40,854 bases of DNA from Paenarthrobacter nitroguajacolicus JCM 14115 (lineage in GTDB: Bacteria > Actinomycetota > Actinomycetes > Actinomycetales > Micrococcaceae), in NCBI GenBank assembly GCA_001313365.1, contig BBFS01000039.1, forward strand, positions 1-40,854, given 5' to 3'. Numbering within the stretch: the first letter of the stretch is position 1; each line of letters begins with the position of its first letter. Shown in pieces: positions 13,347 to 40,854 of the stretch. The notes below the pieces were generated by a model. That model saw nothing but the letters and a program-made list of their open reading frames with translations. It was not told the DNA's origin and made no database searches. Made by a program: the position numbers and the translations under genes.

Positions 13347-13370
13347 GTGGACTCGATTTAGGGGGGGGAA

Positions 13371-13988: not shown

Positions 13989-13995
13989 GAAGTAG

Positions 13996-14469
13996 ATGGT
14001 AGTCAGAACGATACTGTCTAGCCTGATTTGCCTCGGTGCTCTCGCCGGCGTTGGATATGTGGGCGTTTTCATTGAAGCCAGCGCTGGTGGCTACACAGCT
14101 GACCTTCTTGGTAGACCCATCGCCGGAGTTGCACCGCGATTTCCCTGGGAATTGCAGTTCGCCATAGTGGTTATCTCTTTTGCCGCCGTCCTGCTGCTAC
14201 GTCAGGTATTGGATGGCTTAGGGGGAAGGGCTAGATTCTCCGCCTGCATGGTTCCCACCTTGCTTTTGGCAGTCGCGTACGTCATAGGTGCGAATCTCCA
14301 AGGTGAGGTCCTCGTTGGTAACGTTCTTCTCCGGAGTTTCGCCATCGGGGGGGCACAGTCGCAGATGGTACTGCTCGGGGGGGTGGGAGCTTTCCTGGTT
14401 CTGGTTTTGTCTTCAACACGTCAGGTACAAGTGCCTGATGGGACCTCCACGAATAGCCCTGTGGGTTAA
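13996..14469 (+). CDS. Hypothetical four-helix membrane protein
   Basis: No family recognised. The 157 residues contain four hydrophobic segments, near residues 5-28, 50-72, 85-103 and 115-140: ILSSLICLGALAGVGYVGVF, FAIVVISFAAVLLL, MVPTLLLAVAYVIGANL and MVLLGGVGAFLVLVL. The C-terminus is short and polar. The ATG lies seven bases after the stop of the preceding secreted protein, and an AGGAAG site overlaps that stop, so translation is probably coupled. By position it could protect against, or help export, the small peptide at 12899; this is inference only. A hairpin terminator follows directly. Confidence 0.72.
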   Translation: MVVRTILSSLICLGALAGVGYVGVFIEASAGGYTADLLGRPIAGVAPRFPWELQFAIVVISFAAVLLLRQVLDGLGGRARFSACMVPTLLLAVAYVIGANLQGEVLVGNVLLRSFAIGGAQSQMVLLGGVGAFLVLVLSSTRQVQVPDGTSTNSPVG

Positions 14470-20293: not shown

Positions 20294-20888
20294 AGAGTTA
20301 CTTCCGGGGGAGCAGGTCATCACGATTACGCGCCAACAGGGCCGTTCGCTCTTCTTTCCGGTGCTGGCCTTCATCGTGGTACCCGCCCTGACAGGTTTTG
20401 CCTGTGCCTGGATCGTCAGGGAAAACCCCCCCCAGCGTCTGGCGCCGTTCATCACTGCCGAATGGACGCCTTGGCTAGTGGGGGGGACCGTTGTTGTGCT
20501 CGCGGGGGGGTGGTTCCTCGCCGCGTACAGCCTCAAGCGTGTGTTGCGGTGGCGGTCGATCAAGTACGTCCTGACGAGCAGGCGTGTACTTGCCAGGAAC
20601 GGAATGTTTCGGCGGAGTGATTGGCAGGTATCGCTGATGGCCGTCCGCAACGTTGGTGTCCAGCAGAGCATGCTCCAACGGGTATTGCACTCAGGGAATA
20701 TATCCTTGGATACCGGGCACTCCGGAATAGCCGTCCTGGCCGATGTTCCGAAGTGGGGGAAGTTCCGGGGATTCATTCTTGACGCGATGGACGAACTCCC
20801 GCAAGGTGAGGTTTTTGAGGGTGAAGTACTGAGGGATTTTGAAGAATTGCCATGGGAGTTGAGAGAAGGTGGAAGAGATGAGCGTTGA
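20286..20888 (+). CDS. PH domain-containing membrane protein
   Basis: Integral membrane protein with a bacterial PH (bPH_2/YdbS-like) domain; cellular role not known. Start MRKELLPGEQVITITRQQGR leads into two hydrophobic hairpin helices (LFFPVLAFIVVPALTGFACA and WLVGGTVVVLAGGWFLAAY). The PH domain follows: RSIKYVLTSRRVLARNGMF, VSLMAVRNVGVQQSMLQRVL and GNISLDTG. The C-terminus is acidic. At 200 residues it is of normal length and its frame is intact. It overlaps birA by eight bases and the cyclase gene by eleven. A PH-type membrane protein also follows birA in mycobacteria (Rv3278c), so the pairing is ancestral. Confidence 0.85.
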   Translation: MRKELLPGEQVITITRQQGRSLFFPVLAFIVVPALTGFACAWIVRENPPQRLAPFITAEWTPWLVGGTVVVLAGGWFLAAYSLKRVLRWRSIKYVLTSRRVLARNGMFRRSDWQVSLMAVRNVGVQQSMLQRVLHSGNISLDTGHSGIAVLADVPKWGKFRGFILDAMDELPQGEVFEGEVLRDFEELPWELREGGRDER

Positions 20889-22065
20889 GGATCAGCAGTC
20901 CGGCGAGGACCTGGACCAGGAGTTCGACGCCGTACCGGAACCTTCCGTCGACGAGGAGACTGAGGTCGGGCCTGCTCCGGCGTCGGTGCAAACAAGTCCG
21001 CCCACTGGTGTGATGTCCGCGGAGCGCCTGGCTATTAAAGCCCTTGAGGCGAAGCTCCTGGGCGGAGAACGCAAGCTGCGGCGTCGTGAAGTTGCTGCTG
21101 GCGCGGGCGTGTCCATCCTGTCGGCACGCAAAATCTGGCGCGCCTGGGATTCCCTAACTTTGGGGGACGAGGACGTGGCGTTTACTGAACGCGACCAAGC
21201 TGCCCTATCCAGCATCCTGGACTTGGTGCGTGCAGGGCTCCTGACAGAGGAAGCCGCGATCTCAGTTACCCGTTCCATCGGCCAAATGACGGACCGCATG
21301 GTGGTGTGGCAAATCGAAGCCTTGGTGGAGGACATGGTTTCCGAACAGGGAATCCCTGATGCCGTGGCCCGAAAACAGTTGGTCGGGCAACTCCCCGCCC
21401 TGGTGGATTCCCTCGAAGAGATCCTGGTGTACTCCTACCGCCGCCAGCTCAACGCCGGCGTTCAGCGGCTTGCCGTTCGGGCGGAAGCGGGGGGGCTGCA
21501 GGCCAGCGAGGAGGGTCGGGAGGGTGACGAAGACGATTCACCGTTGCCCTTGGCCCGTGCCGTGGGATTCGCTGACCTGGTCTCTTACACCAGCCTGTCG
21601 CGCCGCATGAACGAGAAAACGCTCGCCCAGCTGGTGCAGCGTTTTGAGAACAAATGCGCCGAGATCATTTCCGTGGGTGGCGGACGACTGGTCAAGACCG
21701 TGGGCGACGAAGTCCTCTACATCGCTGAAACCCCCCCCGCTGCCGGAGCGGAGATTTCCTTGGCATTGGCGCAGGCCTTCACTGAGGATGAGATCCTGCC
21801 ACAGTGCCGTGTATCCATGGTGTGGGGCCGCATCCTTTCCAGGCTTGGCGATATCTACGGGCCCACCGTCAACCTTGCCGCACGGCTGACCACCCTGGCG
21901 CAGCCCGGGACGGTTCTCGTAGACGCCATGACTGCGGCCGCCCTTGGACAGGATGACCGCTTCGTCCTGGTTCCCCCCCAGAAGTCGGAGAACGTCCGTG
22001 GCTTCGGTGAGATCCATCCCGTGATGCTCGCACGCGGACGCGGCAAGGGTCTGGTGCTGGACTAG
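20878..22065 (+). CDS. Class III adenylate cyclase with N-terminal regulatory domain
   Basis: Makes cAMP from ATP in the cytoplasm. An acidic leader (residues 1-35) precedes a helical regulatory domain, residues about 45-190 (AERLAIKALEAKLLGGERKL through RKQLVGQLPALVDSLEEIL), like the autoinhibitory, pH-sensing domain of mycobacterial Rv1264. The catalytic domain has the first metal Asp in VGFADLVSYTSLS, the substrate Lys and second metal Asp in GGRLVKTVGDEVLY, and GDIYGPTVNLAARLTTLAQP with the adenine-selecting Asp and transition-state Asn and Arg. All expected catalytic residues are present. ATG at 20878 overlaps the PH-domain gene and has an AGAAGG site about ten bases upstream. The frame is intact at about 395 residues. 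Confidence 0.92.
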   Translation: MSVEDQQSGEDLDQEFDAVPEPSVDEETEVGPAPASVQTSPPTGVMSAERLAIKALEAKLLGGERKLRRREVAAGAGVSILSARKIWRAWDSLTLGDEDVAFTERDQAALSSILDLVRAGLLTEEAAISVTRSIGQMTDRMVVWQIEALVEDMVSEQGIPDAVARKQLVGQLPALVDSLEEILVYSYRRQLNAGVQRLAVRAEAGGLQASEEGREGDEDDSPLPLARAVGFADLVSYTSLSRRMNEKTLAQLVQRFENKCAEIISVGGGRLVKTVGDEVLYIAETPPAAGAEISLALAQAFTEDEILPQCRVSMVWGRILSRLGDIYGPTVNLAARLTTLAQPGTVLVDAMTAAALGQDDRFVLVPPQKSENVRGFGEIHPVMLARGRGKGLVLD

Positions 22066-22336: not shown

Positions 22337-25300
22337 ATGTGGATGGCTCTGCCTGACGGGTCCGGGAACCGCCGTGCCAAGAATCGCCGGCGGAAGGCCA
22401 TCGCGGCAACCGCATTTTCCCTTGCTGCCGCAGTCCTGGTGACCGGCGCGATCCTCTACCCGGGGGGGTTCAAGACCACTGAGGTGGACCTCAATGATGG
22501 CGGCGTCTGGGTGGTCAGCAAGTCCAAGAATGCCGCCGGCCGGCTCAACTACCCTTCCAAGTCCTTGGACGGTGCGGTGACACCGGCAAGCAAGGATTTC
22601 GACATCCTCCAGCAGGCCGGTGACATCTTCATTGATGACCCTGAAGGTGCCACCATCAACCCGGTCAGCGCCGCAAATATGCGCCTGGGCGGAGACCAGA
22701 AACTGCCAGGCTCCGCGGATGTAAGTTTCGGCCACAAAGTGCTGGCAGTCACCGACCCGTCCAAAGGCAAGGTCTGGGCACTGTCGCCCGGCTCAGTGGG
22801 CGGCTTCAGCGACGAATCAGAGCCATTGTTCGAGCAATCGCCCGGAATTGTTTCGGTGGTGGGCGCAGACGACACCATCCACACTGTGATCCGGAGTCCG
22901 GCAGCGTGACCGCAACCAAAGTGGACGCCAACGGCAGGTCAGTGGATTCGCAGGTCCGCAAGGATGATGCCCTCAAGGGCGCCGGAGACCTGCAGCTCAC
23001 CGCCGTGGGTGACAAGGCCGTTGTGCTCAATGAAGTTACCGGAAACATCGTTCTCCCTGGCGGCGCAACCGTTCACCTGGATGACGCCCGGGACGCGAAG
23101 CTCCAACAAAGAGGACCCGCCGCGGATTTCGTGGCCATCGCCACCACCAACGCCCTTCTGCTTCAGCCGTTGGATGGGGGTACAGCCAAAACCGTCCGGC
23201 CCGACGGCGAAGGCATTCCCGCGGCGCCCGTGCAGCTGGGCACCTGCACTTACGGAGCATGGTCCGGTGCCAACAAGTACATTCGCGAATGCAGCAATGA
23301 GGCTGACAACCGCCGCGCCGACGTTCCCAAGGCGAGTGCGTCGCCGTCGTACGTTTTCCGCGTAAACCGCGACCTTGTGGTTCTGAACGACGTCAATTCC
23401 GGCAACGTCTGGATGGTCAACCAGAACATGCAGTTGGTCAACAACTGGGACGACGTTATCCCGCCCCAGCAGACATCGGACGACGCCGACAAGGACTCCG
23501 CGGATGAAGTCCAGCAGACGGTCCTGCCGGACCGCAGCAAACCCAACACCCCGCCTGTGGCCAAGCCGGACGCCTTTGGCGTGCGCGCCGGGAAGACGAC
23601 CCTCCTGCCGGTTTTGGACAACGACGCCGATTCCGACGGCGATGTCCTGACGGTCTCCGCTGACCAAGCCGTGAAGTCGGGGGCGTTGGCGCCTGTCTAC
23701 GGCGGGACGGGTTTTCAGATCTCCGTCCCTGCGGAGCAATCCGGGGGCCGAGACTTTCAAGTACTCCGTGACGATGGCCGTGGCGGAACCGGCGCAGCGA
23801 ACGTTGACCTCCGGATCGTGCCGTCCGGTGAGAACAACGCACCGCAGCAGAAGCCAAACAGGAACAACGCCTTGGTGGTGCAATCCGGGAAGATCGCAAA
23901 CCAGTACATCCTCAGTGACTGGATAGATCCCGACGGCGATGACATCTTCGCGGTTGCTGCCAGCAGCAGCGATCCCGCCGACCAAGTACGCATCAGGCCG
24001 GACGGGCTACTGACGTTCCAGGACTCCGGGGGGGCAGGGCCGGGCAAGAAGACCATTTCCGTGACGGTCTCGGATGGCGCATTGAGCACTGAGGGGGGGC
24101 GCATCGGTGTGGACGTTCGTGCCCCCCCTGGTGCCCTGCCGCCCATCGCCAACGCCGATCACGTGGTGGCGGTGGCAGGCCAGGACACGGTGATCGCCCC
24201 CCGCTCAAAAACGATACTGATCCGCAAGGCGGCACTCTGCGGCTGGCACAGGCCCAGCCGGATGAACAAGCCACGGCTGTCATCGGTCCGGACCAGCAGA
24301 CGTTTACCTTTAACTCCACGACTGCCGGCCCTCACTACGTCACCTATATGGTCACCAACGGCCCCCGCGAGTGCGCAGCAGCTTGTGCGCGTGGATGTAG
24401 TGTCCGGAAATAACGACGGCGCTCCCGTTGCGGTTCGCGACATCGCGCTTCTGCCCAGCGGCGGCAGCACCGTGGTGGACGTGCTGGGCAATGATTCGGA
24501 TCCGGCCGGCGGCGTGCTGGTTGTCCAGTCGGTCACTGCGGAGGACGGCCTGCCGGTTACGGTAGCGGTTCTGGACCATTCAGTGGTCAAGGTCACCGAC
24601 ATCCATGCGACCGGACAATTGTCCTTGAAGTACACGATTTCGAACGGCAAAGCGTCGGCCACGGGAGACATCTCGGTGCAGGTGGTGCCGGCGCCGAGCA
24701 AGCTGCAGGCCCCCCCGCAGGCCAAGCCCGACGAAGTATCGGTACGCGTCGGCGACGTTGTGACCATCCCGGTCCTGGAGAACGATTCGGACCCCAACGG
24801 CGGAGAGCTCACCCTTGATCCCGCACTGGCGCAACAGCCCGACGCCGCGGACGGCAGGACGTTCATCGCTGGCAATTCCCTGCGCTTCATCGCAGGCGAG
24901 GTTCCCAAGACCGTCTATGCCATTTACAAGGTCAGCAACGCCTCGGGCCAAACCGATTCGCAGCAAGTCACTATCCGTATCCGCGCCAGGGACGACGCCA
25001 CGAACACCCGCCCCCCCGAGCCGCGAAACCTGACCGCACGTGTGGTGGCGGGCATGACCGTCAAGATCCCCCGTACCGTTGGACGGCATCGATGCGACGG
25101 CGACTCGGTGCAGCTCATTGGCGTCGACAAAGCGCCCGCACTTGGCACAGCCGTAGTGCGGGATGGATACATGGAGTTCACTGCTGCCGCCAATTCTGCC
25201 GGGACTGACACGTTCAGCTATCGCGTTCGGGACCGAATCGGAGCCGAAAACACCGGCACCGTGATTGTGGGCATCGCACCGGCAGAAGCGAACAATCAGA

Positions 25301-28300
25301 AGCCGATTGCCGTGGACGATGCAATTGACGTCCGGCCAGGTCGTCGGATTGCAGTAGATGCGTTGAAAAACGACTCGGATCCCGACGGCGATCCCCTTGG
25401 CCTGGTGAATTCCTTCGAAGCCAATCCGGAACTGCAGGTTGAGGCTGCCACCGGCAAGATCCTGTTGACGGCGCCCGGCGTTGCCGGAAACGAGAGCATC
25501 AGCTACAGGATCCAGGACGACAAAAAGGCTGAAGCAAGCGCCGTTGTCAGGGTTCAAACAAGCCCGACGGCGGCCCTCCACATTCCGATTGCGGTAGACG
25601 ATCGCATCACCCTGGCTGAGACGCTGGGCAAGACCGCCGTGGACGTCCCGGTACTGAAGAATGACTCTGATCCGGACGGCGTTGCGGAAGACCTGACCAT
25701 CACGTTGCCGGATGCGAATCCGAACGCCAGGGTAGGGACCGCCGGCAACGTTGTGGTGACTCTTACTCCCCCCCAGGACCAGCTGATTCCGTACACCGTG
25801 ACGGACATGGATGGGCAGTCAGCAACAGCAGTGATGTGGATCCCCGGACAAGGCCTGCAGTATCCAACGCTTGCCAAGACCGAGCCCGTTGAGGTCATGT
25901 CCGGCAAGGAAATCACGCTATCGCTCCAGGAATACGTCCGCGTGCGGGACGGGCGCCAACCCCCCCGGCTTACGGTGGCGGACAAGATCCGTGTACAAGG
26001 AGCCGACCCCCCAACAACGTTATTTCGGGCGATGGAAATGCTCTGCGGTATGCGGCACAGACGGACTACGTTGGCCCGGGGTCCATCACCTTCGAGGTGA
26101 CTGACGGATCAGGCCCGGACGACTCGCAGGGGCTGAAGTCCACGTTGACCATCATCACCAAGGTGATCCCGGACCCCCCCAACGCGAACCACATCCCCCC
26201 CACTTTCAGCGGCGCTTCGATCGAGGCACCCAAGGGGGGAAACCACGGACTTGGAATTGGCAAACCTCGCCAAGGACGTGGACGAGCGGGATCAGGGAAA
26301 CCTCAAGTTTGAGCTCGATGGACAGCAACCCGCGGGCTTCCAAACCAAGGTGGAGGGAACCGTCCTCAAAGTCACCCCCGGACCTTTCTGCTAATCCGGG
26401 CGTGGTGGGCACCTTCCCGCTAAAGGTCACGGACGGCCGCTCTGACGCTGTTCGTGCCACGGTGACGGCCACGGTTGTCTCGTCCAACAGGCCGCGTCCT
26501 GCAGCCAACGACGACGCTGTTGAGAAAGCCAACGCCGGGCGGTCCGAGACCATCAACGTGCTGGCCAACGACTTCAACCCCTTCAATGACTCACCGCTGA
26601 CCATCGAGAGCGCCGCCGTGGAAACAGGCTCTGCGGCTGGTCAACCGACGGTCTCGGGTGATTCAGTCACAGTGACTCCTGCTGACAGCTTCAAAGGCGT
26701 CATGGTGGTGCGGTACACCGTGCTGGACAAGACCAAGGACCCATCCAGGCAGGCCGTGGGGGGGCGTGTCCGGATCACAGTCCGGGACAAGCCCGACGCT
26801 CCGTCGGCGCCCGTAGCAACCGATGTGCGTAGCCGCACCGCAGTGCTCAAGTGGGCACCGCCGTCGGACAATGGCGCAGCCATCACCAAGTACACGGTGA
26901 AGGCGGCCGGCTTTGAGCAGGCGTGTCCCACCACTACCTGCACGCTCTCGGGACTGACCAACAACGTGAAGTACGTGTTCACGGTATTCGCCACCAATGA
27001 GGTGGGAGACTCGCCTGCGTCAATCGCGTCCAATGAGATCCGCCCGGACGAGAAACCGTCGCCGCCGGACGCCCCCCCACGGTCAAAGCCGGGGGACAAG
27101 AACATGGCTATTGCGTGGACCCCCTGCGAAGACCGAGGGCTCTCCTGTGAAGCATTACAACCTGGAGATCTCGCCGCCTCCGGCCAACGGCATAGCCGTC
27201 AAGAACGAGGTCACCGGCCTGAGCTACACATGGCCCGGGCTCAGCAATGGCGTGAAGTACAAGGTTCGTGCCCAGGCCGTCAATGAGCTCGGACCGTCGG
27301 ACTGGGGCATGTACTCCCTCGAGGACAACCCCGCTGGCCTTCCGGCGGCCCCCCCGGCTGCCCCCCCACCACCGCTGTGGTGGAGTCCGTGGGAACAAGT
27401 AACCAGATCCGCGCGGATTGGGCCGAACCGGACATCAATGGTGATCCCATCAAGACGTATTACGTCACCATGAGCGGTGGAAACGGCGTGCCCCCCCAGA
27501 CCCAAACAATCCCGGGGAACGTCCGGTCAGCCACCTTTACCGCCCAGAACGCCGAAGCCGGCTACACGTTCACAGTGCAAGCTGAGAACAAGGCCGGGAA
27601 GGGCGGCGTTAGTGCCGCCTCAGCCCCTCGCCGTGCCACAGGCAAGCTCGGCACCGTTAACAACGTCACAGCGACGCCGGCAAATACCGGGGGGAGCGGG
27701 CCGGGCAGTCACCATCAACTTTGCGGTCCTTGACGACAAGCAACGAAACGGATCCACGCAGAGCGAAGTCAGCTACCGCTACCTGGCGAGTACCGGCCAG
27801 TCAGGTCCCATCACGCCCGGGCAAACGGTGGGTGGTTTCGCCAATGGGCAGGCTACCTCCATCACGGTCACGGCCGTGTCCTCCGTGGCGCCAAGTTCCA
27901 ATGCCAGCGCACCGGCAACAACCACGCCGTACGGGTCGCCTGGTACGCCTTCTGCTTCAGGTGCAAACGGCGGCCAGAACCAGACCACACTGACGCTGAA
28001 CTGGTCCTCCCCGTCAACGGGCAGCAACGACGTAGCTGTAACCAAGATCAGGATCACCGGCGGTGGAACGGATACCGGATGGATCAACGAATCCGCCTCC
28101 GGCAGCCGGGTAGTCAACACCGGTGGCTACAACCAGACCCGCACCATTGAGGTCCAGACGTTCAACTCCATAGGCCAAGGCGGAGGCGTGGCTTCCGCGA
28201 GTGCTCAGAGCGGGCCGCAGAAGACGTCGTGGGAAACCACGGTAAAGCCCGGCAGTTACAGGACGTGTACCGATACTGCTCCCTCGGGGCAGACATCGTG

Positions 28301-28528
28301 GGATCAACGTCCCTGGTCACACCTGTGGTGGGAAGGACTACGGGGCACCTTGGCATTACGAGTTCAATGGCACGTTCACGGTCGACTGCTATATCGACCG
28401 CAGCACCCCCGTACATCAACCTCGGTCCTTGGTACCACATGACGAGTGGTCCCAATGCCGGCCGGTACATTGCCAACGGCAACACCGCGCTGGGTGGCCC
28501 CGGACCACACCAGATCCCACGATGCTGA
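22337..28528 (+). CDS. Giant membrane-anchored Ig-like/cadherin-like and FN3 repeat surface protein, paralog 1
   Basis: About 2,060 residues after correction. A basic cytoplasmic tip and one membrane helix (residues about 20-43, AATAFSLAAAVLVTGAILYP) precede an exported domain of about 370 residues starting [18 protein letters not shown]. That domain contains the Cys-flanked [16 protein letters not shown]. Then come seven or eight cadherin-like (Big_9/tandem-95 type) repeats marked by [70 protein letters not shown] and LANDFNPFNDSPLT. About five FN3 domains follow from roughly 26785 (PDAPSAPVATDV..., PSPPDAPTVKAG...). The Cys-containing C-terminus ends in an SH3-like WYHMTSGPNAGRYIANG. No LPXTG or other sorting signal is seen. 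Start is ATG 22337 or 22343. More than a dozen indels, nearly all at G/C runs, break the literal frame. The exact C-terminus is uncertain within about 90 bases. Confidence 0.85.
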
Positions 28529-28793
28529 CTCAACCGATGCCGGGGGGCGCCGGGCAGTTGTCCCCCCCATCGCGCCCCGGGGGGGCAGGGAGACAGTACG
28601 CTGTCAAAGCCAATGGATAGCCCGGTCTCGGGTTTCCTTGGCCGGTCGTGGGGCGCGTGGGATAGTCTTAGGGACTGAAATTTCCGCCGCCGCACGGGGG
28701 GGTACTGCGAAATGTACGGCCGCCGGCGTCTGCCGGTTGGCTTGGAAGCCACTGGGGGGGGCGGCTGAACACAAAGGGAATTCTGGGGGGGCT
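28529..28793. other. Intergenic region between the two giant paralogs
   Basis: About 265 bases with several over-long G/C runs. No gene is supported; open frames here are continuations of broken frames. It carries a candidate promoter for paralog 2 (28638-28668). Confidence 0.5.
28638..28668 (+). promoter_or_regulatory. Candidate promoter of the second giant surface protein gene
   Basis: TTGGCC and TAGTCT are separated by 19 bases. TAGTCTTAG (28663-28671) is identical to the string upstream of paralog 1, though the rest of the two upstream regions differs. The start codon follows after about 125 bases, so a substantial leader would be transcribed. Confidence 0.4.
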
Positions 28794-31700
28794 GTGACAA
28801 CTTTCTTCGGCAAGCTGGGGCTGAAAAAGCGTCAAAACAAGAAATTCATAGCGGGAACTGCCGCTACCGCGGCGGGCGCTTTGCTGATCACCGGGGCAAT
28901 TCTGTACCCGGGGTTCAAGACCACCGAGGTGGACTTGAACGACGGCGGCGTGTGGGTCGTGAGCAAAACCAAGAACGCTGTGGGCCGGTTGAACTATCCG
29001 TCCCGCGTGCTGGATGGCGCCGTCACACCCGCTACCACTACCTTTGATGTGCTGCAGCATGATGGCAACGTCTTCGTGGACGACGAATCCGGCTCAACCA
29101 TCAACCAGGTATCGGCAGCAAACCTGAAGCTGGGTGGCGACAAGCAGTTGCCGTCGTCGTCGCAAGTCAGCTACGGCTCCACCGTTCTCTCGGTGACCGA
29201 CCCGGCCCGGGGGAAAGTGTGGGCACTGTCTCCCTCCACCGTCAACGGCTTCGACGAAGAAGGAACCGAACCCGTACTGACAGGTTCCCCCCCGGGCATG
29301 GTCTCTGCCGTGGGATCCGACAACCGGATCTACACAGCAGACCCGGGTAAGGGCGAAATCATAGTCACCACGGTGGACCCTAACGGGGAACGCACTGACT
29401 CACAGGTCAGCAAGGTGGACGAGCTCAAGGGCGCCGGCGACCTTCAACTGGCCGTGGTGGGCGATAAGCCCGTGGTCCTTGACGCCGCTTCCGGCAACCT
29501 CTTCCTGCCTGGCGGCCGCAAGCTGCAACTTCAGGATGCCCGCGAAGCCAAGCTCCAGCAGAGCAGTGAAGACAGCAGCTACGTCGCCATTGCCACACGA
29601 AAGGCCCTGCTGAAGCAGCCCTTGGACGGGTCCACAGCCGCAACCGTGAATGCTGACGGTGAAGCGTCCCCCGCAGCTCCGGTTCAGGTCAGCAAGTGTG
29701 TCCACTCAGCGTGGTCCGGCGCCAACAAGTATGTCCGCGACTGCGACAACGACGCCGACGACAAGAAAAACGACGTTCCCAAAGCCAGTGCCTCCCCAAG
29801 CTACGTTTTCCGCGTCAACAGGGACCTGGTTGTCCTTAACGACGTGAACTCGGGCAGCGTGTGGCTGGTCAACCAGAACATGCAGCTGGTGAACAACTGG
29901 GACGACGTTGTCCCGCCCAAAAACCAGTCTGATGACCAGGACCAGGAGTCCGCGGACAACAACACCATCAACGTCCTCCCTGACCGCACCAAGCCCAACC
30001 GTCCGCCGGAGACCAAACCGGACGAGTTCGGTGTCCGACCGGGCCGGACTTCCATCCTGAGCGTGCTGGACAACGATTCAGATCCCGACGGCGATGTCCT
30101 CACCGCGTCGGTAGGCGCCAACGGCCCCCCCAAGATGGGTGCCCTGGAAAACATCTACGGAGGATCCGCCTTCCAGATCAAGGTCCCGGCAGATGCGAAA
30201 CCGGGCACGGAATCTTCGACTATAACGCCGCCGATGGCCGCGACTTGTCCGCCGGCGGCAAGGTCACACTTCGGGTAGTGGCTCCGGAAGAGAACAAACC
30301 CCCGTCCTTCAAGCGAGGCGAGCCCACCACCATGCTGGTGGAGCAGGGCAAGTCCGTCAGCCAGAACATCCTGACCGATTGGATGGACCCCGACGGCGAT
30401 GATCTCGTCCTGCTGGATGCAAAGTCTGACAACGACCAGGACCAGGTGAAGGTACGCCGCGACGGCTCCTGACGTACCAGGATTCCGGCGCAGCACCGGG
30501 CAAGAAGAACGTCACCATCACAGTGTGGGACGGCCGGGCCACCACCACCGGCCGCATCGTGGTCAACGTGCAGCCGCCGGGTGCCCTCGCACCCGTGGTC
30601 AACGCTGACCACGTCACCGCAGTGGTGGGCCAGGACCTGGTCATCGCACCGTTGAAGAACGATGTGGACCCCCCCAACGGCGGCGCCCTACGTGTTGCTC
30701 ATGTTGAGGCCGCGGGCCCCCCGCTGAGCTCGGCCCCCCCGTAACCGACGGCGGCACGTTCACGTTCCGGAGCACCACCCTGGCCCGATCTACTTGACCT
30801 ACATCGCCAGCAATGGCCCCCCCCAGAGCAGCCAAGGGCTGATCCGTGTGGACGTCGAGTCCGGCAAGGATGCCGGAGCTCCCGTCGCAGTCCACGACGT
30901 CGCACTGCTCCCGGTGGGTGGCAGCGTGCTGGTTGATCCGCTGGCCAACGACTCCGATCCTTCGGGCGGCGTGTTGGTCCTCCAATCCGTCACCGTCCCC
31001 CCCGACGGCTCCTCGGCATCCGTGAGCGTGATCGACCACAGCGTCCTTCGCGTTACGGACGTCCTCGGAGCCAAGGAACCATTCGTCTTCAGCTACACGA
31101 TGTCGAACGGCCGCGCGTCTGCCACCGGCACAGTGGGCGTTGTCCCGGTGCCGGCTCCCGCCGTCGTCGAGGCTCCCCCCCAGCCAAAACCCGACGAAGT
31201 CAACGTCCGCGTGAACGACGTCGTGACCATTCCGGTCCTGGACAACGACACCCACCCGCAGGGTGAGGAACTGTCCGTGGATCCGGTGCTGGCGCAGAGC
31301 ATCCCGGAAGAGGACGGCAAAGCGTTCATCTCCGAGAAGACCTGCGCTTTATTGCCGGGCCCACGCCCAAAACCGTGCGGGCCATTTACAACGCGGTGGA
31401 TCCTCAGGGGCAGAAGAGCGCCGCGGCAGTCACCATCCACGTCCTTCCGCTGGAAGTACCCAGAATTCGCGTCCGCAGCCGCAAAACCTGACGGCACGAG
31501 TTGTGGCGGGCGGCAGCGTCCGGATTCCGGTTCCGCTGGACGGCATAGACCCCCGACGGCGACTCGGTACAGCTCACCGGCATCGACAGCACACCCACCA
31601 TGGGAACCGCGACGGCGGGCAGCAGCTTCATTGATTTCGTCGCCGCCGGTGACGGCGCCGGTACCGACACGTTCCGGTACAAGGTGATCGACCGCCAAGG

Positions 31701-34700
31701 TGCGGTCAACACCGGAACGGTGACGGTGGGCGTCGCGCCACGTGGCGAGGACAACCAGAAACCAGCTCCCGTCGATGACGAAGTCAAGGTCCGCCCTGGC
31801 CGCCAGATCGCTGTGGACGCGACCGCCAACGATACCGATCCCGATGGTGACATCATCCGGATCCTGACAGACAGCCTGGAGCTGACGCAGGCCTCGACGC
31901 CAAGGTCAGCCAGACCAGTGGCCGGATTCTGGTAACCGCTCCCGCTGCGGAGGGCACCGTCAACGTTCGTTATTCCGTTGCCGACGACCGCGATGCCGTA
32001 GGTCAGGCCAGTATCCGTGTGGTAGTCCAGAACGACCTGCCGTTGCAGGCGCCGATTGCCCGCGACGACCGCGTGACCTCGGCACAAACGCTCGGCAAAA
32101 CGGCCGTGGATGTTCCCGTCCTGAAGAACGACGAAGATCCGGACGGCGTGGGGGGAGAACCTCAAGGTCGCTACCGGTTTGGAAACCGCGCGTCCCGGTC
32201 CCGAGGGCAACGTCATTGTTGACCTCACCGAGCAGCCGCAACTGGTGCCCTACACCGTGGAGGACGTGGATGGACAGAAGTCCACGGCCATCATTTGGGT
32301 TCCCGGTATTGGCCAGCAGGTTCCCACGCTCGCCAAGGACGAGGTAGTGGAACTCGTCTCAGGCCAGTCCGTCACGGTGAACCTCTCGGAATGGGTCAAA
32401 GTCCGTGAGGGACGCTCACCACGCCTGACCCAGACCGACCGCATCAAGCTCATCGGTGCCGACGGCAGCGACCCCCGTGGCCAACGGTGGCACTGCCCTG
32501 AAATACACGGCCGGCGCGGAGTACGTTGGCCCCGGCTCCATCAGTTTCGAAGTCACTGATGGAACAGGTCCGGACGACCCCCAACGGTCTGAAGTCGACG
32601 CTCAGCATCCGAACCAAAGTGCTGCCGGACCCCAACAAGAACAACCCGCCGGTTCTGCTGGGCAGCGACGTGGAAGTTCCCAAGGGCGACTCTGCAAGCC
32701 TCGACCTGGAGAAGCTGACGTCGGATCCGGACTCGGATGACGTACAGAACATGAGCTACGAGCTGGTGGGCGCAGCCCAGGGCGGCTTCAAGGTGAACGT
32801 GGACGGCAAGACGCTCAAGGTCTCCGCGGATGACTCCGTGCAGATCGGGCAGTCGGGCACCGTCCAGGTGAAAGCAAAGGACCGCCGCGGGCTCGAGGCT
32901 GTCGCAACGTACAAGCTGTCCCTGTCGGCCTCCAACCGGCCAAAACCGGTGGCAAACGACGACGCTGAACCCGAGGCGCAATCCGGGAAGCCTGTGACGG
33001 TCAACGTGTTGGCAAATGATTCCAACCCATTCCCGGAGACACCACTGAAAATCGTCTCAGCCGTCACCGAAACGGGCCAGGGAACGGCTGAAGCCGGCGG
33101 GGACAGCGTGACCGTCACACCCGCAAGCGGATTCACCGGAACCATGGTGGTTGCATACACGGTGGAGGATAAGACCGGCGAGATCTCCCGGTATGCCACT
33201 GCCCGCATCCGTTTGACCGTCAAGGACAAGCCGGCAGCACCAACCACGCCGCTTGCACAGTCCGTGGGCGACCAAACCGCCCTGCTCACATGGAACGCGC
33301 CGGCTGATCGTGGCTCGCCGATCACCAAGTACACGGTGTACGGAGAGAACGGCTTTAAGCAGGACTGCCCCCGCGAATACCTGTACGCTGACCGGCCTGA
33401 CCAACAATGTGAAGTACCACTTTGCCGTCACTGCCACGAATGCGATCAATGAATCCGAGCGGTCTCCGGTGTCGGCCGAGGTCCGTCCGGACGTCAAGCC
33501 CGACACCCCGGTTGCGCCCACGCTGAAGTTTGGCGACAAGCAGCTGTCCGTGGCTTGGGTTCCTCCTGCAAGCAAGGGCTCGCCCATCAAGTCCTACGAC
33601 CTCGAGATCTCGCCTGCTCCTGCCGGCCAGAACCCGCAGATCCAGAACCTGACGGCCAACAGCCATGTTTGGACCGGTCTGACCAACGGGGGGGTGGCTA
33701 CAAGGTCCGGTCCTGGCCAGGAATGACGCCAAGGAGCCTTCGGAATGGAGTACGTACTCTGCTGCCGAAACTCCTGCTGGAGTGCCGGCGACCCCTGCGG
33801 CTCCTTCAGTTGCGGGTGCCGGATCCGTAGGTACGCAGAGCCAGTTGCAGGTCAGCTGGGCAGCACCGAACAACAACGGTGACGCTGTGTCCGCCTACAC
33901 GTTGACCACCTACATGGGCGGCGCCGTCGTAGCTACCCAATCCGTGGCAGCGACCTCGCAGAATGTCACCGTGGCGAACTCCGAAGCGGACTACACGTTC
34001 ACGGTCTCGGCTACCAACAAGGCCGGGGTCAGTGGTGCCAGCCAACAGTCGGCCCCCCCGATCCGTGCGGCAGGTAAGCCCGGCATGGTGGGCACCCCCC
34101 CATCGGCTGCCTTGGTGGAAACCAACGCTGATGGCGGCAAGATCCAAGTGACGTTCAATCCCTTGACGGCAGCGGACCGAAACGGAGCCAACGTCAACGA
34201 GATCAGCTACCGGTATGCACTGACGTCCGGAGGCGGCAGTGGCGCGATTCCATCCGGGGGGGAGCCGTAGTGCCGGCCGCCAATGGAACCGACACAGCAG
34301 TAGTGGTGTGGGCAGTGTCTTCACGGAACCCCCACACCCGGGGACAGAAGCCCGGCATCAAACACCGTCAATCCCTATGGGCTTGCCGCTGCGCCGGTGG
34401 TGACCGGAAGTAAGAGCAGCGGTGTTGGCGACAAGACGGTGTCGTGGACCTGGAGCGCTCCCAGTGGCAATGGACGTCCCGTGACGGGCTACCAATACAG
34501 CCTCGAGGGTGGCGCGTGGACTGACACCGGCCAGAGGAGTTTCTCCACCACGGTGGGCTTCGACGAGACAAAAACTTTGCGAGTCCGCGCCATCAGTGGC
34601 GGCCAGGCTGGCCGGGTGGGCAGTGACACGTCACGGAGCGGGTCTGCACCTCCGCCGCCGCCTCCGCCCCACTCCACCCCAGATCCAGGCACACAACAGC

Positions 34701-34949
34701 ACGTGCCCTGGCCAGCCGGGAAGGCCGGACACGTACAACCCGAGCGGCCCCCCCACGTGTGGCGTTGGCTGGGTGGAACGGTCTTGGGGATGGATTGACG
34801 TCACCTGCAGGCAGGATATCTACAACAACGGGACGCCATGGTACAAGCTCAACGGCTCGCCGAAGAGCGGCTGGTTCGTGAAGTCCACCACCGTGGACCT
34901 TCGCAATGGCATGCCCCCCCTGTCTGCTGACTCCTCGCCTGGCTCTTAG
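28794..34949 (+). CDS. Giant membrane-anchored Ig-like/cadherin-like and FN3 repeat surface protein, paralog 2
   Basis: About 2,050 residues, collinear with paralog 1. Start GTG 28794 gives [18 protein letters not shown], a membrane helix ([20 protein letters not shown]) and [20 protein letters not shown]. The N-terminal exported domain keeps [16 protein letters not shown]. Repeats with [42 protein letters not shown] and [18 protein letters not shown] motifs follow, then FN3 domains from about 33230 ([20 protein letters not shown]) to about 34640. A Pro-rich linker leads to a C-terminal module with two cysteines (PTCGVGW, DVTCRQD) and SH3-like [18 protein letters not shown]. Identity to paralog 1 is high in the first 350 residues and visibly lower in the repeats, so this is an old duplication. 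Many indels break the frame (near 30210, 30475, 30740, 31345, 31895, 32150, 32475, 33370, 33695, 34255, 34335 and 34690). Confidence 0.87.
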
Positions 34950-35000
34950 CAACAACTTCAACCCAACACTCCGAACACACCCAAGGAACAGGATCAACCG

Positions 35001-35974
35001 ATGACCATGACAAACGAGCAGGCCGCGTGGTTTGCAGAAACGTTCGAGAAGCTCGTTGCCAACGTGGGCAAGGCCGTGTTGGGCAAGGAACACGTCATCC
35101 GGCTGACGTTCACGGCGATGATGGCCGAAGGCCATGTCCTGTTTGAAGACGCGCCGGGTACGGGTAAGACCTCCCTCGCCCGTGCCTTGGCCGCGACAGT
35201 CCAGGGTTCGCATAACCGCATCCAGTTCACGCCTGACCTCCTGCCGTCTGACGTGACCGGTGTGACCATCTACGATCAAAAGACCCAGAAGTTCGAATTC
35301 CACAAGGGCCGGTGTTCAACAACATCGTCCTGGCTGACGAAATCAACCGTGCTTCTCCTAAGACGCAGTCCGCGTTGTTGGAAGTCATGGAGGAATCCCG
35401 CGTAACCGTGGACGGCACTACGTACGAGGCCGGCCGCCCGTTCATGGTCCTGGCAACCCAGAACCCCCATCGAACAGGCCGGCACCTACCGCCTGCCCGA
35501 GGCCCAGCTTGACCGCTTCCTGATCAAGACCTCCATTGGCTACCCGGATCACGCTTCCACCGTCCGGCTGCTGGGCGGGGGCCAACCTGAAGGACCGTTC
35601 GAAGGACCTCAGCGCGCTGATCACCACTCAGGCCGTAGCGGACATGGCAGACCTGGCAGCCACCACCCACGTGGACACCGCGGTGCTCGAGTACATTTCC
35701 CGCCTCTGCGAAGAGACCCGCAATGCCTCTGAAACGCGGCTTGGTGTTTCTGTTCGTGGCGCTTTGGCCATGGTCCGTGCTGCGAAGGTGTGGGCCGCCA
35801 GCCAGAGCCGCAACTTCGTTCTGCCGGATGACATCAAGGAGCTCGCCCCAGTGGTGTGGACGCACCGTTTGGTGATGGACCCCGAAGCCGAATTCTCCGG
35901 CGCAACACCCGAGGTGGTGCTCAACCGCGTCCTCGCTGACGTCGCGGCCCCCGCAGCAACGCGCGAGCGCCTAA
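35001..35974 (+). CDS. moxR: MoxR-family AAA+ ATPase
   Basis: AAA+ chaperone-like ATPase of the MoxR group, cytoplasmic, commonly paired with DUF58 and von Willebrand A proteins to help assemble or activate protein complexes. Walker A is [15 protein letters not shown]. Walker B and the following block read [20 protein letters not shown] and [12 protein letters not shown]. The sensor 1 region is [20 protein letters not shown] (after removing one C), and [15 protein letters not shown] follows. The C-terminal lid has [20 protein letters not shown] at 35001 is preceded by AGGA. Frame breaks near 35310, 35465, 35575 and 35950; removing one C near 35950 gives the natural end PQQRASA-stop at 35974. 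Length is about 320 residues, normal for the family. It lies 51 bases after the second giant gene. Confidence 0.93.
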
Positions 35975-36017
35975 ACACTACTCCCCCACCGCACCCAGCT
36001 CGAACAAAGGCCCAGAC

Positions 36018-37434
36018 ATGTCCTCCAGCACACCCCTGAACAGCTGCTGACTCGTTGAAACGCGCTACGTCCGCTCTTGGCGGCAAGATGCGTTCCCTGC
36101 GCGGCCCTGGCAACGAGCCGGGCAAGCGCCCCCCCGGCCGGTCAAGCCAACGCGGCAAAACCAGCAAGCTCCACCCCCCCGCAGCCGTATGGTCGGAAGC
36201 AGTCGGAACTGCAGGCGACTTCCTTGCGCCAGGGTGGAGCAAGGTCAGGGCTGTCTGGCTGAAGTACGTGTGGCCCGTCTCGCGGTAGTGAGCCTGCTCG
36301 GGTGGGTAGTGTTGGCTGCCTCGATCGGGCTCTGGTGGGCGGGACAGGCGTGGGGTTGGCAGGAAGCCAAGTCAGCGGCCATGGTGGCGTTCCTGCTGTT
36401 CCTCCTTGCCATCGGCTTCATCGTGGGCCGCTCGGCCTACGGCGTGGTTCTGGACCTCGCCCGCACACGGGTGGCTGTGGGGGGGATGACGCTGTGGGCA
36501 GCATTGCCGTGTCCAACGTGTCCACGAGGCCGTTGTTGCCTGCAGCGTTGGAGCTGCCGGTGGGTTCCAACACGGCCGTTTTCCATTTGCCCCCGCATGA
36601 AGCCGGCACAGGTGCACGAGGATCTCTTCACCATCCCTACGGCCCGGCGTGCAGTGATTGTCGTGGGTCCGGTCCGCTCTGTTCGCGCCGACCCACTCCA
36701 CTTGCTGCGGCGCCGCGTGATGTGGACCGATCCGGTGGACCTGTTCGTACACCCTCGGACCGTATCGCTGGGGAGCTCGGCCGCAGGTTTCATCCGCGAC
36801 CTTGAGGCATGCCCACCACGGAGTTGTCCAGCGCGGATGTCTCCTTCCATGCTTTGCGCGATTACGTTCCCGGGGACGATCGGCGACACATCCACTGGAA
36901 GACCACGGCCCGCACCAATAAGCTCATGGTTCGCCAGTTTGAGGAGACCCGGCGCGCACACCTGGCCATCTCGCTCTCTATCAACACGGACGAGTATGAC
37001 TCCGGGCCCGAGTTCGAAATGGCCATTTCTGTGGCCGCTTCCATTGGCAGGCAGGCCATCCGCGAGCAGCGTGAGTTGGATGTCCTGACCCAGAAGGGGG
37101 GCCGCTCCGCTGCGAAACCGGCCGGAACTTGCTGGACGACATGACCCGCATTGTCGGGGGGGCACCCATGCGGAAGACCGCCGTCGACCTCGCCCGCACC
37201 CTTTCGGACACTGTCCCCAACGCCTCCGTGGTGTTCTTCGTAGTGGGCAGCCACGTGACAGCCACGCAACTGCGCTCCGCGGCCTCGTCCGTTCCCCCCC
37301 CGGGCGTGCGGAGCCTGGCGGTCCGTGTCCAACCCGGAGCGGCGCCGTCGAGGGCCAACATCGCGGACCTGACGGTCCTCACGGTCGGCGACCTGGACGA
37401 TCTCGCCATAGTTCTTCGAAAGGCGGCAGCATGA
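36018..37434 (+). CDS. DUF58 domain-containing protein
   Basis: Membrane-associated partner of MoxR; DUF58 proteins have a von Willebrand A-like fold. The N-terminus MSSSTPLN is followed by a long basic, Pro/Gly-rich region (residues about 15-75), then two helices (VVSLLGWVVLAASIGLWWAG and AAMVAFLLFLLAIGFIVGRS). The hallmark is in the C-terminal half: FHALRDYVPGDDRRHIHWKT, directly followed by TARTNKLMVRQFEETRR. AFSLSINTDEYDSG-like sequence and a final FFVVGSHVTATQLRSAASSV block close the fold. Breaks occur near 36045, 36275, 36480, 36590, 36810 and 37100. The ATG is preceded by AAAGG. The stop codon overlaps the next start (ATGA at 37431-37434). Confidence 0.85.
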
Positions 37435-39944
37435 GCACCGCTCCCCCATCTCAGGGTGCGTCCCCGCGCAGCTAAGGCAACCCGGTCCGCCGCCCGCGCG
37501 CCGGAGGATCGATATTCGACGACGGCAGGCCAGCCTGGCATTTCGCCGTCGACTGTGGGGGGGCGCTCCTGGTGCTGCTGTTCCTTGGCGTCCTCGGTTT
37601 CACCCTAAGCTTCGGGGGGGAGACGCCCACTACCTCATCGCCGGTCTGGGTGGTGTGCTGCTGGGGGGGCTGGGCATCGCTGTCCTCAACGTGCGCTTCC
37701 GCCTGGGACTGCTCATCACTGCTGCCGTGACCTTAGGCGCCTACATGGTGTTTGGCTCGGCGTTGGCCGTGCCGGATTCGGCTGTCTTCGGATTCCTGCC
37801 CAGCCTCGACTCCTTGCGTACGCTCCTGCTGGGCATCGTGTTTGCCTGGAAGGACATGCTCACCGTTGGCGTTCCTGTGGGCACAGCGAATGGCATGCTC
37901 ATTGTGCCGTTCCTCAGTTCACTGGTGACCGCTCTGGCCGCTGGTCTGCTGACGTGGCGTTTGAAGAGCCCGTACTGGCCGTTGCTGCCGGTGCTGGTCC
38001 TCTTTGTCACGGGCATCGCTTTCAGTACCAGCGCGGGCTTCCTCAATGTGGAGCGCGGCGTCTCGCTGACCATTGTGTCCATCGTGTGGGCGACGTTCCG
38101 CCGTGATGTGCTCCGGCGGAACAGCACCAAGGCCGTTTCGGCCAATAGGCCGGGTTCCGACGCCGCCACAGCCCGCCGCGGCCAGCTCCGCCGCCTGGGG
38201 GGGACTGCTGCAGCCGTGATCGTTGTTGCGGTGGGCGTCACCGCCATCGCCTCGCCGTTGGTGACCGCCAGCGATGACCGGAAGGTGCTTCGCAACACGA
38301 TTGTCCCGCCGTTCGATCCGCGGGAGTACGTGACACCCCCCCTTGCAAGCTTCCGTAACTTCGTCAAGGACGAGAAGGACAGCACGCTGTTCACGGTCAA
38401 GGGGCTGCCCAAAGACGCCCGCGTCCGGTTGGCGGCACTGGACGCCTTCAACGGTGTGAACTACAGCATGGATCCCAACAGCTCCGGCAACTTCAGCAAG
38501 GTGGGTGATGCCCGGTCGCTGAACACCCTGGCCGATTCCGGGAGCCCGGTGGAGGGCACCAACTACACACTGGACATCACCGTAGAGGATTACCAAGGCT
38601 ACTTCGTGCCTGGTGGCCGGCACACCACGGGTATGAGTTTCGCGGACACTTCGGGGGGGCCGCTTCCGGGCTCTACTTCAACGCCGGCACGGACACAGCC
38701 GTGACCACCAAGGGCCTGTCCAAGGGCGAGAACTACACCGTGCAGGTCTCGGACCCCGGGACGCTGGAGCACGGCCAGCTCACGCAGTACGACTTCGCGA
38801 AGCTCACGTTGCCGGAAGCGGAGGAAGTGCCACCGATCGTGGCTTCCCAGGCGAACCAGATTTCCGCGGATGCACCGACTGCCATTGACCGTGTCCGGCA
38901 GATTGAGGCACATTTCCAGAAGAGCGGTGCTTTCAGCAATGGCCTTGTGCCGAAGGGCAGCTCCCGAGCCTTCCCGGCCACAGTGCTGCGCGCGTCCGCA
39001 ACATGCTCTCGGCCAAGCAGATGCTGGGGGGGGACGACGAGCAATACGCCGTGTCCATGTCCCTCATGCTCCGCCACCTTGGTATTCCTTCCCGCGTGGT
39101 CATGGGGGGGTTCTATCCTGACCCCAAGAGCCCTGAGAACGGCGCCGGGGGATATCAAGATCACGGGCAAGGACGTCCACGCCTGGGTTGAGGTGGCGTT
39201 TGACCGCGTGGGATGGGTTGCCTTCGATCCCACCCCGCCCAAGGACAACGTGCCCATCCCGCCGGACCCGGAAAACAAGTCCAAACCCAAGCCGCAGGTA
39301 CTCCAGCCGCCGCCCCCCCCGCCGCAGGAGCCCGCTGACCTGCCGCCGGATTCCACCCCGGATGCCTGGATGCAGACGAGAAGAAAAACAACCCGTGGCT
39401 TTTCTGGGGTCCGCTGCTCGCGGCTATTGGCGTGGCACTGATTCCGTTGGGGGGGATCCTCGCCTTGCCGCTGCTGCTGATTCTCCTGCTGAAATCACGA
39501 CGCCGGAAGGCCCGTTTCCGTGATGGCCACCCGGCCCAGCGGGTTGGCGCCGGATGGAACGAAGTGCTGAGCCTGGTCACCGATATGGGTGCCTCGATTG
39601 ACACCAAGTCCACCAGACGCGAGTCGGCCTCGGTCATTGCTGACGCGTTCCCCACTACCGGAACTACCACCACCCTGCTTGCCCACCGGGCCGACGCCGC
39701 TGTGTTCGGCGCGGGCCAACCCAGTGAGGACCAGGTCAAGGAGTACTGGGAGATCGTTGATACATCGCTGACGGACATTACGGGAAGCGTCGGATTCTGG
39801 AAACGGCAGCAGGCACGGTTCTCGCCGCGCTCGTTGCTGTCCGATGGCCGCGCGGCCCTTCGTCGCCGTCAACAGGGCACCACCGATCCTGCGAAGCGCC
39901 GCTTCACGTTGCCGTTCAAGAAGGACACCACTGATGAGCAATGA
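37431..39944 (+). CDS. TgpA-like membrane protein with transglutaminase-like domain lacking the catalytic Cys
   Basis: About 830 residues. A Pro/Ser-rich N-terminus and FDDGRPAWHFAVD precede about seven membrane helices (for example LGGVLLGLGIAVLNV, LLITAAVTLGAYMVFGS and LLPVLVLFVTGIAFSTSAGF). Then comes a large exported region from about residue 280 and a transglutaminase-like core (MLSAKQML, DEQYAVSMSLMLRHLGIPSR and VVMGFYPD). HAWVEVAFDRVGWVAFDPTP keeps the His and Asp of the triad. A Pro-rich linker, a further helix pair (LFWGPLLAAIGVALIPLG, LALPLLLILLLKS) and a basic cytoplasmic tail follow. The residue before EQYA, where active enzymes have Cys, is Asp, so catalysis is not expected. Start ATG overlaps the DUF58 stop. 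Breaks occur near 37475, 37560, 37620, 38660, 38965, 39150 and 39375. Confidence 0.87.
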
Positions 39945-40211
39945 GACAGAACTTTGTCCGGCTTGCCGGCATCCGGTTCGCCCGGGCGCGACGTTCTGCA
40001 CGCAGTGCGGTTCACCCCTGAATAACCGTGGTGCCCGCAAGGAAGGCAACATCAACCATGCTCAGAAGGCGGCGTTGGAGTTCGCCAACCGGCATGGTTT
40101 CTCCGATCCCGGTAGTATCTCGGTAGTGTCGGCTCCGGCGTCGCCGATGCAGCACGGAGCAAAAACCATGCCGGACCGTATGCCTGGGCCAGGGGGGAGG
40201 GACCACAATGA
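39934..40211 (+). CDS. Small zinc-ribbon protein
   Basis: About 91 residues. The N-terminal zinc ribbon has two CxxC pairs, ELCPACRHPVRPGATFCTQC, which should bind one zinc ion. The remainder (HAQKAALEFANRHGFSDPGS) is Ala/Ser/Pro-rich and without a recognised domain. The ATG overlaps the upstream stop by eleven bases. The literal frame continues past the natural end because of a six-G run near 40192; a run of four would give a stop TGA at 40209-40211 overlapping the next ATG (ATGA), the pattern seen between its neighbours. Role unknown; such ribbons often recruit partners or regulate membrane complexes. Confidence 0.72.
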
Positions 40212-40854
40212 CCACCAAGCTCGAATTGGCGCCCGCCTCTGCCGGGAAACGCCTGGGCGCAGCTGTGCTGGATTGGCTGGGACTTTGCCGTGCTTGCCAC
40301 CACGTTCGCTCTGGGAATTGCCGGCATCACGCAGACCCGCCGGAACGGCTTCATTGTCTATGACACGGGCCTGTTGGTTCTCCTGGGGGAGCATCGGTTT
40401 AGGCGTGACCGTGGTGTATACCTTCGTCCTCCTTGGTCTGGAGGCGAAGTCTGGAAATACCATCGGCAACCAGCTCATGGGCATCCGCAGTGCGGATTCT
40501 GATGGCTATGCTCCGGGCGCAGGTGTTGTTTTTGTTCGGGGGGGGATCCTTACTGGCGGCCTCTTGCTGCTGGGGGTCCATTGTTGCGGTCATCTTGTCG
40601 GCGCTTGGACAGATCGGACTGGTGTTGTGGATCGCCCTGCCGCTGATGTTCCTCGGTGCAGTTTGGGCTTTCCTTGTAGTCGTATCCAACGCCTGGGACA
40701 CCAATGGCAAGCTGCGTGGCTGGCAGGACAAGGTGGCAAAGTCCTTGGTGTTCGATGTGAACGCCGGTCGCAATCCGGTAACCACGGGTGGCATCCAAGG
40801 TCCCTACAGTTTCGCGCCTATGGATCTCCCACCGGTTCAGCCCGTCGCTTCCCC
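40208..40854 (+). CDS. RDD family membrane protein (3' end beyond the window)
   Basis: RDD-domain integral membrane protein. It starts MTTKLELAPASAGKRLGAAV, then LDWLG, the usual entry into the first RDD helix (Arg/Asp positions). After correction of indels near 40283 and 40390 the helices ATTFALGIAGI, GLLVLLGASIGLGVTVVYTF and LLLLGSIVAVILSALGQIGL follow, with the conserved loop SGNTIGNQLMGIRSADSDG between helices. NAWDTNGKLRGWQDKVAKSLV is the typical final RDD block with its Asp-Lys. The protein continues past the window end with a Pro-rich tail (YSFAPMDLPPVQPVAS). It is the last visible member of the moxR operon; RDD proteins are thought to act in transport or as membrane adaptors. Confidence 0.83.

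Follow-up and report, generated by a model that had tools for sequence, protein, structure and literature searches.

A PFNA-type locus in Micrococcaceae: tandem giant surface proteins with a predicted beta-propeller base, and a transglutaminase-like partner without the catalytic cysteine

What is a bacterium building when it encodes two surface proteins of about 2,050 residues one after the other, directly before genes for a MoxR-family ATPase, a DUF58 protein and a transglutaminase-like membrane protein (TGM), and has this arrangement been described before? The locus in question lies in Paenarthrobacter nitroguajacolicus JCM 14115 (assembly GCA_001313365.1, contig BBFS01000039.1, positions 1 to 40,854 of the forward strand), a stretch of 40,854 nucleotides referred to below as the window. 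An earlier note, made from the letters of this DNA, knew of no named function for the combination. That reading was rejected, since the gene order matches the bifidobacterial PFNA cluster, already named in the available portions of PMC8430577 and PMC6803598, and we regard the locus as the Micrococcaceae form of a PFNA-type locus. What is new is a predicted beta-propeller at the base of the giants, a variable and possibly SH3b-like outer end, homogenisation of the propeller in tandem pairs, and a TGM protein that lacks the catalytic cysteine. The whole is a real, widespread and already named gene combination with new, testable features.

The gene order given in the earlier note, two giants and then genes for MoxR, DUF58, a transglutaminase-like protein and a zinc ribbon-RDD protein, is present in the window; the order from the giants to TGM is also found in Arthrobacter sp. 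M2012083 (locus L002), the reference relative for gene ends and domain matches. The features are as follows.

22337..28528, + strand: giant 1, the upstream copy, artefact-broken into pieces in frames 2, 1 and 3 (intact 2053-residue frame in L002; end mapped by alignment to L002), with an N-terminal transmembrane helix, a predicted beta-propeller, Ig/cadherin-like repeats, FN3 repeats and a cysteine-containing end
22337..23466, + strand: giant 1 transmembrane helix and propeller region; fold taken from the giant 2 counterpart
28794..34930, + strand: giant 2, the copy adjoining MoxR, same architecture, artefact-broken (intact 2066-residue frame in L002; end mapped via L002)
28794..29918, + strand: giant 2 transmembrane helix and propeller region; modelled, and matched by fold, on its L002 counterpart
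34091..34640, + strand: giant 2, last FN3-like module, from similarity search against relatives
34676..34930, + strand: giant 2, putative SH3b-like C-terminal end (tip); start approximate, model on the L002 counterpart
35001..35974, + strand: MoxR-family AAA+ ATPase, artefact-broken; PF07726 and PF17863 on two pieces, end approximate
36018..37434, + strand: DUF58 membrane protein, artefact-broken into two window pieces; PF01882 in L002, start approximate
37431..39944, + strand: TgpA-like protein with multiple transmembrane helices and a transglutaminase-like domain, artefact-broken into three window pieces; PF01841 in L002
39934..40854, + strand: zinc ribbon-RDD(-FHA) protein, truncated where the window stops; PF13240 in the window

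The two giants are collinear, as the earlier note had it, but no open reading frame (ORF) of 2,050 residues exists in the window: the longest pieces measure 1,064 and 610 residues from a start codon (1,151 and 611 from stop to stop), and the reading frame switches many times in giant 1, giant 2, MoxR, DUF58 and TGM. In L002 both giants are intact, at 2,053 and 2,066 residues from stop to stop. Alignment of the window to L002 contains 145 gaps, of which 96 shift the frame, and many are G/C runs stretched from 4 to 5-7 nucleotides. Runs of 4 are depleted in the window, and runs of 7 occur at 2.2 per kb overall (2.1-2.4 per kb in each half). Because such 7-long runs are found window-wide and at 0 per kb in L002 and L004, the broken frames are a sequence artefact, a systematic inflation of G/C homopolymers from position 1 to 40854, and not pseudogenes; any frameshift or odd short ORF in the window should be distrusted. 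For this reason relatives were used to read the intact arrangement. That the giants of P. nitroguajacolicus have decayed into pseudogenes, as their repeatedly broken frames might be taken to mean, is scarcely credible, given run inflation that spans the whole 40 kb and intact giants in relatives at 89-93% DNA identity, and this reading was rejected. The giant 2 N-terminus is 98% identical to those of L001 and L002. Giant ORFs are also broken, into 1444 and 1310 residues, in the complete genome of Pseudarthrobacter sp. Fe7 (L041), perhaps another case of sequence quality.

How regularly do the giants and the helper genes occur together? In a sample of the order, the N-terminal domain of the giant was found (E <=1e-3) in 103 of 198 genomes, 96 of which could be placed among the matches listed; 95 loci were read, the 96th being G001, the genome of L002. 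MoxR, DUF58 and TGM genes all lie on the giant's strand in 86 of the 95, and in two more, G155 and G127, they stand directly upstream of tandem giants, for a total of 88. In these two genomes the order is reversed, with PP2C, FHA, serine/threonine kinase, 234-residue protein, MoxR, DUF58 and TGM genes preceding the two giants (G127, L169/L160; G155, L170/L154). G074 and G024 have DUF58 and TGM, with MoxR not found by tblastn; contig ends interrupt the loci of G199, G131, G044 and G116; and in G123 none of the three was found in the DNA read on either side of the giant. One 11-kb contig of G199 (L197, C137) carries two giant ORFs on opposite strands. Among 72 loci of near relatives, 66 contain all three helper genes. 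Five others (L053, L065, L066, L067, L069) end before the operon or just past the MoxR start, and the last, L041, has broken ORFs in which DUF58 was not called apart. The earlier note had held that its proposed link would fail if the giants usually occurred without the moxR operon; as regards neighbourhood this is not so, with the three genes adjacent in 88 of 95 genomes, and the association is strong. Farther afield, a broader profile of the giant N-terminus (E 1e-8) matched 7 of 198 genomes of the phylum and 31 of 197 of the class; more than 10 of the class matches fall in ORFs below 1,200 residues and may represent propellers of another kind. A plasmid collection gave 172 matching records, only one of which covers most of the query (a 1.35-Mb record of Arthrobacter sp. 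StoSoilB13, 82.4% identity, 86% covered); the other records among the matches listed match the MoxR part only.

The architecture of the giants is well supported. The membrane helix, exported domain, cadherin-like repeats, FN3 repeats and SH3-like end described in the earlier note are found in both (Pfam Big_9, Cadherin_4/5). Pfam marks nine Big_9 and three FN3 stretches, and from length we estimate about 12 Ig/cadherin-like and about 5 FN3 repeats; NCBIfam yielded only the tandem-95 repeat on L002 giant 1. Matching proteins are named in databases as Ig-like domain-containing protein, fibronectin type III protein or hypothetical protein. Because basic residues precede the single N-terminal transmembrane helix, the giant is probably anchored as a type II protein, its N-terminus inside and its repeats outside, with a length that would suit crossing a Gram-positive wall. 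The exported domain is a predicted beta-propeller, 67% identical in amino acids between the two giants of L002; the model of the giant 2 counterpart there (mean predicted local distance difference test score, pLDDT, 59; core about 112-318) gave propeller fold matches, among them the extracellular propeller of Mycobacterium tuberculosis PknD. Models of the highly variable outer end are suggestive of an SH3b-like domain. The last FN3-like module of giant 2 has 74-84% matches in L003, L004 and L006-L010 and, at E 1e-5, none in L001, L002, L005 and L014, which are the closest relatives.

Where two giants stand in tandem, their propellers behave unlike the rest of the protein. Two propellers occur in 36 of the 72 near-relative loci and one in the other 36, some single-giant counts being limited by contig ends or flank. 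Within the 36 pairs, identity is 0.52-0.58 in the Ig region and 0.38-0.46 in FN3, and the median for tips, 0.31, compares with 0.32 for shuffled tips, some tip alignments being very short; propeller identity is 0.59-1.00, with a median of 0.92. In DNA, propellers exceed 0.90 identity in 19 of 40 tandem pairs (many at 0.97-1.00), against 0.629 for the body, and three further pairs are intermediate, at 0.76-0.88. The right edge of the homogenised stretch falls in the peptide NNWDDV(V/I)PPKN, the end of the propeller, in 19 of 19, while left edges vary. Because a tree places both propellers of the same genome next to each other, or almost so, in seven loci (L025, L036, L041, L045, L052, L070, L072), the comparison indicates repeated gene conversion of the propeller between tandem giants.

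TGM was termed a pseudo-transglutaminase in the earlier note, and catalytic-site counts made in relatives support that term. Its single sequence match in the PDB is 6g49 (protein-glutamine gamma-glutamyltransferase, E 2.4e-5), which we take to be TgpA of Pseudomonas aeruginosa. The catalytic cysteine is placed by general knowledge of the site and by the 6g49 alignment, which begins just after it. Cysteine stands there in 0 of 98 order-wide rows (D 49, E 17, A 14, S 13, G 3, Q 2), partial ORFs being included; histidine is kept in 30 of these and aspartate in 48. A Bifidobacterium-centred search gave 0 of 120 (S 118, D 2), with no histidine and no aspartate, and in a further set 74 of 107 rows could be scored by motif, none with cysteine. 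TGM thus appears to have lost its active site and to be a dead enzyme, and the missing cysteine, in the Bifidobacterium-centred set as well, contradicts accounts of TGM as a working transglutaminase or a presumed cysteine protease.

MoxR has an AAA_3 domain and lid, with Walker A in 105 of 105 and Walker B in 104 of 105 rows longer than 300 residues from near-relative and order-wide loci. The broken window pieces of DUF58 and TGM have no Pfam match; those matches come from intact L002, where DUF58 hits PF01882 at E 1.9e-12. A D-x-S site in DUF58, which we take to be the MIDAS-type vWA aspartate site, aligns in 103 rows, most from near relatives, with serine in 79, aspartate in 18 and another residue in 6. 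PF06271 falls just under the cut-off in the window zinc ribbon-RDD protein, and both PF06271 and PF00498 are found in L083, where this protein ends in an FHA domain. The tight packing with overlapping genes that the earlier note described could be measured in L083, where the shared nucleotides number 4 for DUF58/TGM, 8 for TGM/zinc ribbon, 4 for zinc ribbon/PP2C, 14 for PP2C/FHA and 4 for FHA/kinase; MoxR and DUF58 show no clear overlap. These overlaps suggest that a PFNA-type locus is transcribed as one operon. The same note ended its five-gene operon at RDD, but in L083 and L086 the set continues past the zinc ribbon-RDD-FHA gene with PP2C, a protein of about 616 residues with a C-terminal FHA domain, a serine/threonine kinase, a 234-residue protein and an ATPase of EssC/EccC type, about 1,485 residues long (by a Pfam run on L083). 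The next ORF in L083 we take to be DNA ligase-like.

Upstream of giant 1, directly and on the same strand, is an adenylate cyclase-like gene (window 20869-22065) that is kept in L002. Elsewhere in the window, GC content is 0.53 at 12001-14000 against 0.61-0.66 in other parts, and two ORFs tested there had no Pfam match at E 1e-3. Searches for Rfam families (gathering threshold) and for tRNA or tmRNA found none in the window.

What, then, would the locus do? The balance of probability tips slightly towards a reading in which MoxR and DUF58, with a dead transglutaminase as scaffold, put together or gate a tether running from membrane to wall, through a chaperone step. The giant would be anchored by its N-terminal helix, with the beta-propeller at the membrane face, Ig/cadherin-like and FN3 repeats spanning the wall, and an SH3b-like tip that would probably grip a wall glycopolymer or external ligand. 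MoxR, an ATPase whose Walker motifs are intact, would join DUF58 and the polytopic pseudo-transglutaminase in one membrane chaperone complex, which may dock on the propeller and control folding, insertion or release of the tether, itself perhaps under phosphorylation control by the kinase, phosphatase and FHA proteins of the locus. The propeller, kept identical in many tandem copies, is the best candidate docking face. A tether between membrane and outer wall had been proposed in the earlier note, and the fold of the outer end lends it suggestive support. More tentatively, as a possibility we consider rather doubtful, tandem giants may repeatedly copy the propeller from each other by conversion and share one MoxR-DUF58-pseudo-transglutaminase platform, while the last FN3-like modules and the tip are exchanged and diversified, so that every cell would have two tethers differing in grip; the dead transglutaminase would then be an order-wide conserved assembly receptor and not an enzyme. 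The conserved base and variable outer end offer sites at which the targets of MoxR-DUF58 systems can be tested directly.

Several observations weigh against these proposals. The physical steps are drawn from sequence. The propeller model is only partly confident, and for the tip two of five models reach only 61-65 pLDDT, the best Foldseek E for the L002 model is 0.1, which is not significant, and VIA Z is below 8. MoxR is missing beside the giant in three genomes with enough DNA (G123, G074, G024). Neither Paenarthrobacter, the lineage to which the window belongs (DNA about 0.65), nor the tandem pairs L139, L154 and L160 show homogenisation, so function does not require it. Conversion may stop at the edge of the propeller for the plain reason that the homology runs out, and variability is not confined to the tip, since identity already drops across the FN3 region.

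The giants might instead be receptors and not load-bearing tethers, the tip sensing the wall or an outside ligand, the propeller relaying to a serine/threonine kinase and MoxR-DUF58-TGM tuning the receptor. A same-strand kinase in 63 of 95 loci, PP2C and FHA genes in many, the PknD propeller among the fold matches and the variable outer end all fit this idea; yet the L083 kinase has one transmembrane helix of its own and need not touch the giant, and no same-strand kinase was seen in 32 of 95 loci, though many of these end before its place. We judge it somewhat improbable. An adhesive role towards hosts or surfaces, as proposed for FN3 of Bifidobacterium, would draw on the adhesion and TNF-alpha binding reported in the available portions of PMC8430577, PMC6803598 and PMC10688814. 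The variable outer end fits such a role; the tip fold, for its part, weakly resembles wall-polymer binders. Since Arthrobacter, Paenarthrobacter and Pseudarthrobacter live mostly free in soil, the general ligand cannot be a host cytokine, and the adhesive role appears unlikely. The presence of the base domain in 103 of 198 sampled genomes of the order, soil relatives of Arthrobacter among them, speaks for an older function in the cell envelope.

The third alternative turns on the ATPase at the end of the extended locus, an EssC/EccC-like FHA-FtsK protein encoded downstream of the kinase (L083:12539-16999; L086:12496-16950): MoxR-DUF58-TGM may serve this type VII ATPase and its substrates, with the giants merely in the same operon or part of the export machine. 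EssC-like ATPases were found in 133 of 198 genomes at E 1e-60, and 60 places appear among the matches listed (at least 41% identity), 38 on a contig with a listed giant. Favouring the idea, 30 of those 38 lie within 25 kb on the same strand, and EccB was matched in 0 of 5 Arthrobacter-type genomes (14 control genomes were equally silent, leaving absence unproven) and YukD in 1 of 5. The remaining 8 of the 38, however, are more than 100 kb away; the Bifidobacterium-like G157 is not among the 133 genomes; the ATPase scores below three family cut-offs (534 bits against 778 for TIGR03928, 339 against 509, 291 against 347); and in five genomes searched the WXG100 matches lie outside the locus, with a groEL-like ORF next to them in both loci that were read. 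With the ATPase gene so distant in 8 of 38 and WXG100 elsewhere, type VII secretion as the core link is weakened, and we consider it decidedly unlikely. The WXG100 genes in question (L166:8359-8709 in G003, and L168 in G004) are far from the EssC-like gene.

In the literature collection searched, no paper treated PFNA in Micrococcales or joined FN3, MoxR and Arthrobacter, and none joined type VII secretion with MoxR, DUF58 and FHA, or type VII secretion, EssC and WXG100 with Bifidobacterium. Besides the four papers cited here (PMC8430577, PMC6803598, PMC10688814 and PMC12067865), it yielded one more on PFNA, PMC12607495. A query on MoxR, transglutaminase and catalytic cysteine gave only a mycobacterial NlpC_P60 review; matches on gene conversion, FN3, propellers and bacterial surfaces look, by listing, unrelated.

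Set beside known systems, TGM resembles P. aeruginosa TgpA in having multiple transmembrane helices and an extracytoplasmic transglutaminase-like domain, but differs in carrying D, E, A, S, G or Q at the catalytic position and in the drift of histidine and aspartate. The locus ATPase shares FHA and FtsK/SpoIIIE domains with EssC/EccC, at 534 bits to TIGR03928, but falls under the cut-off of 778, and in five genomes the WXG100 matches fall outside the locus. Resemblance of the tip to wall-binding SH3b domains (the lipoteichoic acid-binding domain of Lactobacillus SlpA, autolysin repeats, InlB) is weak, with no significant Foldseek E, and the giant tip differs in being cysteine-containing and highly variable. 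The MoxR Proper (MRP) or mycobacterial moxR1 operon has the same order of MoxR, DUF58 and transglutaminase-like genes; in the available text of PMC12067865, which compares PFNA with the mycobacterial moxR operon, the mycobacterial version has a vWA protein downstream and a giant goes unmentioned.

The closest relative is PFNA. As described in the available portions of PMC8430577, PMC6803598 and PMC10688814, it comprises pkb2-fn3-aaa-atp-duf58-tgm, often with prpC, a hypothetical gene and fha; the first two call it species-specific to bifidobacteria and discuss it in terms of host immunity, and PMC8430577 reports that kinase Pkb2 phosphorylates the MoxR protein and that giant and MoxR are fused in B. 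breve. Giant, MoxR, DUF58 and tgm are likewise consecutive on one strand here (in pieces in the window, intact in L002), with kinase, PP2C and FHA genes in the locus and an anchored, FN3-containing giant. The giant of G157 is fused to MoxR, as in the B. breve report, and in a search with the G157 TGM the named organisms among the matches listed were all Bifidobacterium; a TGM without the catalytic cysteine is common to the order-wide and Bifidobacterium-centred sets. The kinase does not directly precede fn3: an adenylate cyclase-like gene takes that place before giant 1, and in Arthrobacter the kinase lies downstream (L083, L086), whereas in many other genomes of the order it does precede the giant. 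Further differences from PFNA are the tandem giants, found in half of the near-relative loci, the zinc ribbon-RDD-FHA protein, the EssC-like ATPase and, in Micrococcaceae, the putative SH3b-like end.
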